A stretch of 64,000 bases of DNA, taken from assembly GCA_028704755.1 (NCBI GenBank), contig JAQWEU010000001.1, positions 1 through 64,000 of the forward strand, given 5' to 3'. Both the position numbers and the translations under genes were made by a program. The notes under the pieces are model-generated. The model did no database searches. It was not told where the DNA came from and was given only the letters and a program-made list of their open reading frames with translations. Positions 6,563-9,613 of this stretch are shown here, one piece after another. How positions within the stretch are numbered: position 1 is the first letter of the stretch; every line of letters starts with the position of its first letter. The stretch comes from Minisyncoccota bacterium. GTDB lineage: Bacteria; Patescibacteriota; Minisyncoccia; Minisyncoccales; Minisyncoccaceae.

Positions 6563-8182
6563 TCACATCTTTTCTGGAGCAGAGATACCCATGGTCGCCA
6601 AGACGCTAGCAAGAGCTATTTTCGTAGTAACAAGAAGGGATAATCTTGCATTTCTTAAATGCTCATCATCTACTAAGCAATGGCATTCGTTATAGAACTG
6701 ATGAAAAGCAGAGGCCAGCTCTAAGGAATATTGGGGCAATCTATGTACCTGATAATCAATAGCTGTATCCTCAATGATGTCTTCGAACTTCAGGATCTTC
6801 CTCATGAGGTCGATCTCTTTTCCGTTCGTCAGGATATCTCCTTCGATGTTCCTGATCCTGTCCTCATCCACGCCACTGGAATTAAGGATACTACAGATAC
6901 GTGCGTGTGCGTATTGGATATAAAAAACAGGATTCTTATCTGATTGCTCCTTAGCTAGATCCATGTCGAAATTAAGATGAGTGTTAGCTGACTTCTGCAA
7001 GAAGAAGAATCTTATGACATCAGGGGGCAATTCGTCCAATAGATCGTCCATAGTTACTACCGTACCCAATCTTTTCGATATCTTTACAGGCTTCCCATCC
7101 TTCATGACAGTTACGAACTGGAGAAGTATTATATCCAATCGACTCCCCCCATCACTTTTGAATCCTAGCATCTCGACACCAGCTTTCAATCCCGCAACAT
7201 CGCCAAAATGATCAGCTCCCCAGACATTGATCACCTTATCAAAACCCTTTTCAATAAATTTATACCTGTGATATGCCAAGTCACCAGCTAGATATGTCTT
7301 AGAACCATCAGACCTGACTATGACCCTATCCCTCTCATCACCATATTCACTAGTCTTCAGCCAAACAGCCCCCTCATCCTCATAGGTGAATCCGCCCTTT
7401 TCCAGACACATGACAACATCATCGACTAAACCTTTTTCATGAAGGATGGATTCTGAAAACCATTCATCATAATCGATCCCAAGATTATGTACTGTCTTCT
7501 TGATATAATCGTCAAGGACCAGCTTTGAAGCTTCCCTACCAATCTGATAAACGTCTGTAATATCTTTGAACCTACTATTGAGCTCATCTATATAATCCCC
7601 TGTATACTTCGCATCAGCATCTTTCAGGACTGAATGCCCAAGAGATAGTATCTGCTTACCATAATCATTGACGTAATATGCTTTTTCGACTTGGTATCCA
7701 GCTTTTTTAAGGACATTAGCAAGGACATCTCCGAAAGGTCCACCCCTTCCATTGCCTACGGTCAGAGGACCTGTAGGATTAGCAGAAACGAATTCTACCT
7801 GGATCTTTCTTCCGTTTCCAATATCTAATGACCCAAAATTCCCTCTATCATCCAAGATGGAATGCATTTTCCTGATTATATATTCATGACTTAGATAAAG
7901 ATTGATAAAACCTGGACTGATCGCATCTATCCTAGAAAAAATATCCTTGAAATCCTCGACTCCTTCTAATTTATTCTTGATCTCCTGAGCTATTTCTATC
8001 GGATCAGATTTTTCTATCCTTGCAATCTCCATCGCAATACTCAAGGAGTAATCACCGTTACTATCGTCTTTCGGTTTCAGGACTTGGATGTTCGGGATAG
8101 CAAAATCAGAAAGAATCGACTCTTCTTGGAGCTTAGAGACTGATAATGCTACGATTTCCTTGATTTTCTTTCGTAAATTCAT
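6563..8182 (-). CDS. argS: Arginyl-tRNA synthetase
   Basis: 539 residues, complete class I ArgRS. An N-terminal Add-1-like domain (about 1-100) is followed by the catalytic core with SANPTGPLTVGNGRGG, where the HIGH signature is TVGN and lacks both usual histidines, then AYYVNDYGKQ. The KMSKS-equivalent loop is KISKRLGT, with VTMDDLL after it, and the C-terminal DALR anticodon-binding domain has YAHARICSIL and RLPQYSLELASAFHQFYNEC. The HIGH variation resembles what I recall from other CPR ArgRS, so it is probably a lineage trait and not a defect. It stands alone, divergent from smpB. Confidence 0.95.
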   Translation of the reverse strand: MNLRKKIKEIVALSVSKLQEESILSDFAIPNIQVLKPKDDSNGDYSLSIAMEIARIEKSDPIEIAQEIKNKLEGVEDFKDIFSRIDAISPGFINLYLSHEYIIRKMHSILDDRGNFGSLDIGNGRKIQVEFVSANPTGPLTVGNGRGGPFGDVLANVLKKAGYQVEKAYYVNDYGKQILSLGHSVLKDADAKYTGDYIDELNSRFKDITDVYQIGREASKLVLDDYIKKTVHNLGIDYDEWFSESILHEKGLVDDVVMCLEKGGFTYEDEGAVWLKTSEYGDERDRVIVRSDGSKTYLAGDLAYHRYKFIEKGFDKVINVWGADHFGDVAGLKAGVEMLGFKSDGGSRLDIILLQFVTVMKDGKPVKISKRLGTVVTMDDLLDELPPDVIRFFFLQKSANTHLNFDMDLAKEQSDKNPVFYIQYAHARICSILNSSGVDEDRIRNIEGDILTNGKEIDLMRKILKFEDIIEDTAIDYQVHRLPQYSLELASAFHQFYNECHCLVDDEHLRNARLSLLVTTKIALASVLATMGISAPEKM

Positions 8183-8236
8183 AATACTTGTAATAAATTA
8201 ATTTCTGATACATTTCCATTTTAGCAGAAATTAGGA

Positions 8237-8249
8237 TAAAATAAAATAT
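8237..8249 (+). promoter_or_regulatory. -10 element of smpB (leaderless)
   Basis: TAAAAT at 8237-8242 lies 7 bases before the smpB ATG; only a weak -35 (TTCCAT around 8214) is visible. No Shine-Dalgarno site precedes the start. Confidence 0.35.
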
Positions 8250-8720
8250 ATGAAGATATTAGCAGAAAATCGAAAAGCAAGTTTTGACTATGAATTCCTT
8301 GAAAAAATGGAGGCTGGCTTATCCCTTCTCGGACAGGAGGTGAAATCCCTGAGGATCAGAGGAGCAAGCCTTGCGGGGAGCTATATAACGATCAGGACAA
8401 ATGAAAAAACTGAAAAGGCGGAACTATTCTGGATAGGAGGAGTAATCGCCCCATATCAAGTCACTAATCTTCATAATATAGCATATGATCCTAAAAGAGA
8501 TAGGAAACTTCTTTTAAAAAGAGAGGAAATCGCTTATTTAACAGGGAAAATCAAAGAAAGGGGCTTGACTTTAGTGCCAATAATGGTTTATACTAGGAAA
8601 CACAAAATCAAGATGGAATTGGCATTGGCAAGAGGTAAAAAAACTCATGACAAAAGAGAATCCATCAAGAAAAAGGATGTTGAGAGAAGAATGAGAGAAG
8701 AATTAAAAGCAAGGGGGTGA
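8250..8720 (+). CDS. smpB: SsrA-binding protein SmpB
   Basis: 156 residues. Binds the tRNA-like domain of tmRNA and brings it to stalled ribosomes for trans-translation. Family hallmarks seen: ENRKASFDYEFLEKMEAGL at the N-terminus, LGQEVKSLR, the DPKRDRKLLL stretch, and a basic C-terminal tail (GKKTHDKRESIKKKD) that mimics the codon-anticodon helix. The gene has no Shine-Dalgarno site and seems leaderless. Its last codons and TGA stop form part of the acceptor stem of the tmRNA gene immediately downstream. Confidence 0.97.
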   Translation: MKILAENRKASFDYEFLEKMEAGLSLLGQEVKSLRIRGASLAGSYITIRTNEKTEKAELFWIGGVIAPYQVTNLHNIAYDPKRDRKLLLKREEIAYLTGKIKERGLTLVPIMVYTRKHKIKMELALARGKKTHDKRESIKKKDVERRMREELKARG

Positions 8721-9067
8721 TTCGCTTCGACAGAAATTTGAAAATAATAATGCAAGCCGAGTATTCTCAAATCTCGCAAAACTTTGAGAAAAAACAATAA
8801 GTGCAAACTTATTCGAAAAAGAACCTGCATTAGCATACGCTTAATGCTGTCTCCTCTACGAACTCCCGCCTAGTAGAAAGGGGCATAATATTTGTGGGAT
8901 AGGTCATTCTCTTTGATTTAAGGATAACGATCGAAAATATATTAGATCCAGGTTATTCTAAATTTTGTTTGATTTTGCAAAATAGCCTGTAATCAAAATC
9001 AAAATAAGCTTGTAGATTTATTATTTAATACAATTTTTGGACGCGAGTTCATTACTCGCCACCTCCA
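8713..9067 (+). ncRNA. ssrA: Transfer-messenger RNA (tmRNA), tag ANLFEKEPALAYA
   Basis: The 5' end GGGGGTGATTCGCTTCGACAG and 3' end CACCTCC pair into a 7-bp acceptor stem with a G3-U70 wobble, the alanine identity element. The T arm is GCGAG-TTCATTA-CTCGC (9043-9059). CCA is not encoded. The resume codon GCA at 8803 opens a reading frame for ANLFEKEPALAYA that ends with TAA at 8842-8844; the ALA-type C-terminus is a typical proteolysis signal. The RNA 5' end (8713) lies inside smpB, overlapping its last codons and stop (8718-8720), so smpB mRNA and tmRNA must be processed from, or transcribed through, the same bases. Confidence 0.95.
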
Positions 9068-9091
9068 CATAAATATTACTTTTAAAATAAT

Positions 9092-9613
9092 TTGAATAAG
9101 AAACCATTATACAACAATCAAATAGCAGCCAAGGAAGTGCGCTTAGTCACTGAAGACGGAGAACAATTAGGAGTAATCTCAAAAGACGAAGCCCTTGCAA
9201 TGGCGAAAGAAAAGAATCTTGATCTTATTCAGGTGACTGAAAAAGTAGTTCCCCCCGTATGCAAGATAGGAGATTATGGAAAGTTCATCTATTCCCAACA
9301 GAAGAAGGAAAGGAAGATGGGCGGAGAAAAGAAACATTCTGGAGAATTGAAAATGATCAGACTGACTTATAACATTTCAGATAATGATATTGAGACAAGG
9401 GTTGCTGTCGCCGAAAAGTTCCTATTAAAAGGAGGAAAGATAAAGATTGACCTTATTTTAAGAGGAAGACAGAATGCGAGTGCGCTTTCAGACTTCGGAA
9501 AGCAGAAGATTAACAAACTTATTGATTCGCTCGGAAAGAAATTAGAGATAAAAATAGAAAAACCTCTAAGCAAGGAACCGAAAGGATTATCGATGATTAT
9601 TTCAAAAAAATAA
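9092..9613 (+). CDS. infC: Translation initiation factor IF-3
   Basis: 173 residues. Binds the 30S subunit, checks the start codon and prevents premature subunit joining. N-terminal domain: LYNNQIAAKEVRLV and the GEQLGVISKDEALAMA helix; linker KFIYSQQKKERK; C-terminal domain: LKMIRLTYNISDNDIETR through KGGKIKIDLILRGRQ to EKPLSKEPKGLSMIISKK. The start is TTG (9092), a rare codon as is usual for infC, where non-ATG starts allow autoregulation (AUU in E. coli). First gene of infC-rpmI-rplT, 25 bases after the tmRNA 3' end. Confidence 0.96.
   Translation: MNKKPLYNNQIAAKEVRLVTEDGEQLGVISKDEALAMAKEKNLDLIQVTEKVVPPVCKIGDYGKFIYSQQKKERKMGGEKKHSGELKMIRLTYNISDNDIETRVAVAEKFLLKGGKIKIDLILRGRQNASALSDFGKQKINKLIDSLGKKLEIKIEKPLSKEPKGLSMIISKK

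Follow-up and report, generated by a model that had tools for sequence, protein, structure and literature searches.

The genes smpB and ssrA run into each other in the stretch of 64,000 nt analysed here (contig JAQWEU010000001.1, positions 1 to 64,000; hereafter, the window), and the locus raises the question of how its tmRNA is supplied. A sequence-only reading had proposed that the tmRNA is cut from the smpB message, which would leave that message without a stop codon and might couple the levels of the two partners in trans-translation. Alternatively, ssrA may have a promoter of its own. We therefore examined the overlap, its distribution among relatives, and the transcription signals in and around the two genes.

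The smpB-ssrA locus and its 8-nt overlap

The smpB gene (positions 8250 to 8720, plus strand) is an ORF of 156 aa with the C terminus ...ELKARG and a TGA stop at 8718 to 8720. Its product matched PF01668 (E value of 3.5e-46, 157.1 bits; cut-off 27) and, at full length, the NCBIfam SmpB model TIGR00086 (150.7 bits; cut-off 119.1), and it shared 64% and 61% identity with the SmpB proteins of two Candidatus Paceibacterota bacterium records, which points to a genome of the Patescibacteria (CPR). The tmRNA gene, ssrA, on the same strand, was placed at 8713 to 9068 by ARAGORN and at 8713 to 9070 by Rfam (RF00023), the two programs agreeing on the first base. The Rfam match was complete (model positions 1 to 374; 133.6 bits, cut-off 47), the tag peptide given by ARAGORN was ANLFEKEPALAYA, and the acceptor stem formed as expected when the predicted precursor was folded. 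The 3' CCA was not encoded at positions 9068 to 9070, the gene ending in ...CACCTCCACAT; part of the family members encode it, and it is absent in others.

Downstream lies infC (IF-3; 9092 to 9613, plus strand), which starts with TTG about 22 nt 3' of the tmRNA, in a gene order kept in relatives. It is followed by rplT, and argS lies upstream of smpB in divergent orientation. Among the 78 loci of more than 2500 bases within L001 to L088, infC came next after the tmRNA in 14/14 family loci, in 37 of the 39 other loci of the order with enough flank, and in 2/25 loci outside the order. Across the order, the tmRNA is embedded in a conserved smpB-ssrA-infC-rplT row of translation genes.

The two genes share 8 nt, GGGGGTGA (8713 to 8720, plus strand), which form the 5' strand of the tmRNA acceptor stem plus A8 and, at the same time, the final bases and stop of smpB. 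That this overlap is real is virtually certain; the sequence-only reading had recognized it at a size of seven bases, to which A8 has to be added. The last two sense codons of smpB are AGG (8712 to 8714) and GGG (8715 to 8717), and its stop coincides with nucleotides 6 to 8 of the tmRNA, inside the mature molecule, which makes this an overlap of the Carsonella type. Processing of the tmRNA 5' end by RNase P is established (PMC3985003). A cut before G8713 would leave an smpB message that ends at GCA (Ala154) plus one nucleotide, and the earlier claim that RNase P cleavage at G1 of the tmRNA would strip the smpB stop holds for any transcript that carries smpB; the same logic is set out for Carsonella in PMC4131195.

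Distribution and origin of the overlap

How far base 1 of the tmRNA lies from the smpB stop was measured at 244 tmRNA loci gathered across the phylum, of which the 94 outside the order were drawn from the better-scoring matches. A distance of exactly -8, as in the window, was found at 51/244 loci, 50 of them within the order. The overlap proved to be conserved in relatives, a point that the sequence-only reading had suggested checking, with -8 found at 18 of the 19 loci of the window's family (the remaining locus being at -19) and at 32 of the 131 loci in the rest of the order. These 131 loci included 5 with other overlaps beyond -3 and 26 with gaps of 16 to 100 nt; a gap of 0 to 15 nt was the commonest class (50/131), and the remainder were farther apart, lay at -1 to -3, or lacked smpB. 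The rest of the class had -8 at 0/9 loci and the rest of the phylum at 1/85, where 45/85 had no same-strand smpB just upstream. Locus L176 was counted at -3 owing to a late Rfam tmRNA start; its sequence reads -8, which was used for the tree only. A gap of -8 was also given by ARAGORN for the named record L252 (Candidatus Nealsonbacteria), and the same junction was seen by eye in L250 and L251 (Paceibacterota), where ARAGORN called no tmRNA.

The overlap exceeds chance, given the recurrence of exactly -8 at 51/244 loci and the low share of TGA among the stops of large ORFs in the window (7/62). The window, taken together with sequence from three relatives in its family, served as a background set and held 42 t(m)RNA genes; for 24 of these an ORF on the same strand ended close upstream, and 2 overlapped, including the window tmRNA. 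By a published estimate, about 1 in 15000 of the mRNAs tested overlaps a co-oriented t(m)RNA gene (PMC4131195). As a separate observation, a tRNA-Ala gene in a relative (L269:16159-16232, G007, minus strand) shares 10 nt with the ORF upstream of it and has a TAG close to where its acceptor strand ends, which makes it a candidate for producing another non-stop message.

The codons within the overlap look to be translated up to the UGA and selected. The penultimate smpB codon in -8 loci is N-G-G, where N is the base at -1, and a T at this base, giving Trp, was found at 2/50 -8 loci versus 39/89 non-overlapping loci, in which the same base is part of the spacer. The proteins encoded at -8 loci ended in Arg-Gly in 46 of 50 cases. 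The rarity of T and the Arg-Gly ends are as expected if the frame is translated up to the UGA. A sense-codon role for UGA was considered and rejected, because TGA closes 7 of the 62 large ORFs in the window and RF2 is present in most relatives (over the cut-off in 29/40 genomes of the relatives set). The window's own genome, a 1.12-Mb draft in 79 contigs that is 91.6% complete, yielded an RF1-like gene only, with RF2 not found; RNase P RNA, found in 32/40 genomes of the relatives set, was not found there either. Both absences are most likely assembly gaps. A further bias was observed at codon -5 of smpB (8703 to 8705 in the window), where Leu is encoded by TTA in 29/35 cases among -8 loci compared with 34% gene-wide; non-overlapping loci had a weaker TTA bias (33/75 Leu among the final 7 codons). 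This bias could be a nucleotide-level signal.

On an SmpB tree of 142 rows, from which rows of less than 120 aa were left out, the -8 state changed 29 times, with at least 8 changes forced by well-supported (starred) branches, indicating that the state was gained or lost repeatedly. Three close relatives depart from it: the frame of the overlap is shifted in L032, L132 has regained its own TAA stop with the ELKARG tail unchanged, and L142 has lost the UGA, with SmpB extending into the tmRNA. The overlap may have arisen by neutral compaction, in which the spacer of a small genome shrank and smpB lost its own stop and borrowed the UGA present at nucleotides 6 to 8 in many tmRNAs of this group, with no regulatory meaning. 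We lean toward this account, which concerns the overlap alone and is compatible with a promoter embedded in smpB. It fits the predominance of 0- to 15-nt gaps in the rest of the order, the occurrence of other overlaps (-17 to -30), and the changes seen in L132 and L142; in addition, the tmRNA had TGA at nucleotides 6 to 8 in only 17/50 loci with a gap of 0 to 15 nt, such that this stop appears to be used mostly where it is available. It fits less well with the near-fixation of the overlap in the family despite much sequence divergence, and with the -8 frame being far above other frames (51 loci versus 8 with other overlaps beyond -3 nt among the 244), although the latter could also be explained if short tails are preferred.

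The overlaps of -17 to -30 occur in L032, L142, L023, L006, L102, and L181, where SmpB runs further into the tmRNA and has odd C-terminal tails. In L127, the closest relatives of which overlap, smpB and ssrA are separated by a 52-nt spacer with a 13-bp hairpin (ATCATCAAATCGC/GCGATTTGATGAT) just before the tmRNA.

A candidate ssrA promoter within smpB

A search for an ssrA promoter inside smpB, as the sequence-only reading had advised, revealed a conserved sigma-70-like element about 112 nt upstream of the tmRNA. In the window it consists of a -35-like TTGACT (8565 to 8570, plus strand; SmpB codons L106-T107) and a -10-like TATACT (8589 to 8594, plus strand; codons Y114-T115), which agree with the sigma-70 hexamers at 10/12 positions and are separated by a spacer of 18 nt, within the range of 16 to 18 nt. 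The pattern TTGACW-18-TATAMT occurred once in the 64-kb window versus 0.06 occurrences expected. Judged from the position of the -10, the predicted tmRNA precursor would have a 5' leader of about 112 nt (8601 to 8712, plus strand), the final ~45 nt of which, before the acceptor stem, were unpaired in the fold.

Sigma-70-like pairs with a -10 ending 60 to 120 nt before the tmRNA were found at 47/50 -8 loci, while shuffles of synonymous codons gave 23.4 +- 3.4 and none of 100 shuffles was as high. Nearly all of these pairs were one and the same element, in which the Leu-Thr of GLTLxPxxxYT is written TTG-ACN and its Tyr-Thr is written TAT-ACT, with a spacer of 18. When the element was defined as TTGAC at the L-T codons together with TANNNT at the Y-T codons, it was present within smpB at 48/50 -8 loci; at one -8 locus, L157, no promoter-like pair was found at all. 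A strict -10 just upstream of the tmRNA was found at 0/50 -8 loci (two nearest windows). For ssrA genes outside the order that stand alone or are distant, the corresponding figure was 22/70 (dinucleotide shuffles, 8.1 +- 2.4). A pair noted by eye directly before the window tmRNA, TTGAGA-17-TTAAAA (8680 to 8708), was rejected as a promoter on account of its poor -10 and the 0/50 result.

The element lies in the conserved SmpB motif GLTLxPxxxY, and about half of the synonymous shuffles already hold a pair, so that its codons might reflect a constraint on the SmpB protein or its codon usage and no promoter. The distribution of the element bears on this point. It was present at 172/191 loci with ssrA no more than 400 nt after smpB (136/146 in the order and 36/45 in others) and in 0/35 smpB genes without a close ssrA, namely, 0/5 with ssrA more than 400 nt off and 0/30 non-adjacent genes (the best 30 of 41, from 45 genomes, all outside the order); most of the loci come from one order, a single clade, and the counts are not independent. 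TTG was used for the motif Leu in 169/172 adjacent genes versus 750/3271 Leu codons overall, ACT for the motif Thr in 140/143 versus 458/1060 Thr codons overall, and TAT for the motif Tyr in 173/180, above its gene-wide use. The residue after this Tyr was T, N, S, or D in 175/187 adjacent genes and L, F, I, or V in 24/30 non-adjacent genes. The resulting hexamers, TATACT, TATAAT, TATAGT, and TATGAT, keep T1, A2, and T6 constant in all, like a -10 element. A T occupied the wobble place in 176/184 adjacent loci with a codon starting AC, AA, AG, GA, GC, or TC, compared with 2852/6374 among the corresponding Thr, Asn, Ser, Asp, and Ala codons of these genes. The synonymous positions are thus fixed only where ssrA adjoins, with other codons and residues used elsewhere, and a promoter before the tmRNA is more frequent at loci without the element. 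This dependence on adjacency largely refutes the protein or codon constraint, which we now consider most improbable, and the conserved TTGACT-18-TATACT is very probably an ssrA promoter inside smpB. No report of such a promoter was seen among the papers listed by full-text searches of PMC, restricted to open-licence papers.

The 19/191 adjacent loci without the element were of several kinds. Three loci of family f10 had TTGACT-17-TATATT ending 11 to 20 nt before the tmRNA, and in f181 (four loci) and f11 (one locus) TTGAAA-17-TAGGAT/TAGAAT/TATAAT was found elsewhere in smpB, single 9/12 pairs being weak. Pairs of at least 10/12 in the 70 nt before the tmRNA were at chance level where the element was present (2/172; shuffle mean, 1.7), and they were in excess at 4/19 loci without it (shuffle mean, 0.2) and at 18/53 stand-alone ssrA genes (shuffle mean, 0.9). 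The two promoter positions, in smpB and directly before the tmRNA, seem to replace one another. Adjacency was also compared with the presence of the promoter on SmpB trees from which rows of less than 110 aa were left out. On the best (unsupported) tree there were 10 disjoint pairs that differ in adjacency, and over 100 pairings the promoter went the same way in 4 to 8 of them and the opposite way in 0; a strict sign test had only 1 pair on starred branches.

A weaker promoter-like pair, TTTCCA-18-TAAAAT (8213 to 8242, plus strand), precedes the smpB ATG at 8250, its -10-like TAAAAT (8237 to 8242) lying 7 nt before the ATG. The starts of smpB were surveyed at 91 of the 191 adjacent loci, the rest lacking an unambiguous start or sufficient upstream sequence. 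A -10-like hexamer of the form T-A---T ended 3 to 12 nt before the ATG at 67/91 of these starts (shuffles, 27.8 +- 4.0), most commonly at a distance of 6 nt. This suggests that the smpB mRNA is leaderless or nearly so.

A probable nested gene pair and its known counterparts

We consider it likely, at a probability of about 0.8, that the two genes are a nested pair, with ssrA transcribed mainly from the promoter in smpB codons 106 to 115 and smpB from its own, weaker promoter. The sequence itself shows the overlap, its conservation, and the promoter motif with its codon and residue bias and its tie to an adjacent ssrA; that the motif is active, where transcription starts, how the precursor is processed, and whether feedback occurs are what we infer. 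Under the nested arrangement, smpB would be read from the promoter directly before its ATG, and ssrA chiefly from the strong sigma-70-type promoter, which would probably provide most of the tmRNA with the ~112-nt leader. This leader would consist of 3'-terminal smpB sequence, lack a start codon, and be unable to make SmpB, and RNase P would remove it at G8713. Polymerases from the smpB promoter would continue into ssrA, since no terminator-like site lies between the genes. On these full-length transcripts SmpB would end at the UGA that is also tmRNA nucleotides 6 to 8, and ribosomes completing SmpB would occupy the RNase P site. If RNase P acted first, the result would be a non-stop message, extending one nucleotide past codon 154, and the ribosomes stalled on it would be substrates of trans-translation. 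Only full-length smpB-ssrA transcripts would lose the smpB stop in this way.

A stricter arrangement would have the tmRNA cut solely from the smpB message, such that each tmRNA costs one message and trans-translation of the non-stop product couples the partners. The conservation of the 8-nt overlap in the family, the lack of a terminator-like site between smpB and ssrA and of a strict -10 directly before the tmRNA in the 50 -8 loci, and the logic published for Carsonella (PMC4131195) all favour it. However, at 48 of these 50 loci the promoter element lies within smpB, past its start, and the overlap comes and goes inside families and can shift its frame, changes that would not easily be tolerated if the feedback were vital. 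We therefore regard exclusive production from the smpB message as improbable.

The coupling proposed by the sequence-only reading thus has partial support only. The overlap exists and is conserved, but the embedded promoter would separate tmRNA supply from smpB supply, because transcripts that begin there lack the smpB start and would yield tmRNA without sacrificing smpB messages. The situation that this reading had named as refuting its proposal, with a tmRNA start exactly at 8713 and no shared transcript, was not seen either. Since there was no terminator-like site in 8150 to 9200 and no strict -10 at the tmRNA, a shared transcript is expected as a minor product. Feedback through non-stop smpB mRNA is possible but would be minor, and we rather doubt that the coupling is physiologically meaningful. 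Equally tentative is a view reaching across the Patescibacteria, in which the ssrA promoter overrode the residue preference of SmpB (from hydrophobic to Thr, Asn, Ser, or Asp for the fit to the -10) and, together with the Paceibacterota-like overlap, built a brake into SmpB production; each full-length transcript would then give either finished SmpB or tmRNA plus a non-stop message.

Several known systems resemble parts of this arrangement. In Carsonella ruddii, smpB runs into the tmRNA gene, and maturation was proposed to create a non-stop smpB mRNA and a feedback (Hudson, Lau & Williams 2014, PMC4131195). As described in that paper, the overlap is present in half the strains and none elsewhere, is called unique, and goes with an SmpB without its C-terminal tail. 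The smpB frame of the window likewise enters the tmRNA gene, but it differs from that description in the exact -8 distance, in the full SmpB tail, and in its recurrence through an order of Patescibacteria. For arfA of Escherichia coli, it was shown experimentally that an RNase III cut at a hairpin/terminator inside the ORF gives a non-stop mRNA, restrained by trans-translation (PMC10107115). Both cases would have the mRNA of a rescue factor made non-stop by RNA processing, here as read from the sequence; unlike the RNase III and the backup factor of that account, ours would involve RNase P and the main rescue factor.

The E. coli ssrA promoter, TGGTCA-18-TATACT, is located in the smpB-ssrA spacer and gave the highest RpoD-binding peak of a SELEX study (PMC3946193). 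The gene order, the -10, and the spacer length of 18 are as in the window, whereas the E. coli promoter, as reported there, lies outside the coding sequence. The smpB-ssrA spacer measured 214 nt in the E. coli locus (L313), and the element was not found in the smpB motif codons of that locus. Co-transcription of rnr and smpB is reported for Streptococcus pneumoniae (PMC3534368); there too smpB is tied to a partner by shared transcription, the partner in that report being RNase R, not ssrA.

The known range of the overlap, in print for Carsonella as unique, is greatly widened by its frequent occurrence in an order whose members are ultra-small. Loci with and without the overlap, sometimes in one family, are many natural replicates with which to test whether rescue systems control themselves through non-stop mRNA. 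In the embedded promoter we see a clear candidate for a regulatory sequence that dictates which codons, and even which residues, a conserved protein uses; it also predicts the start of ssrA in organisms seldom amenable to culture.
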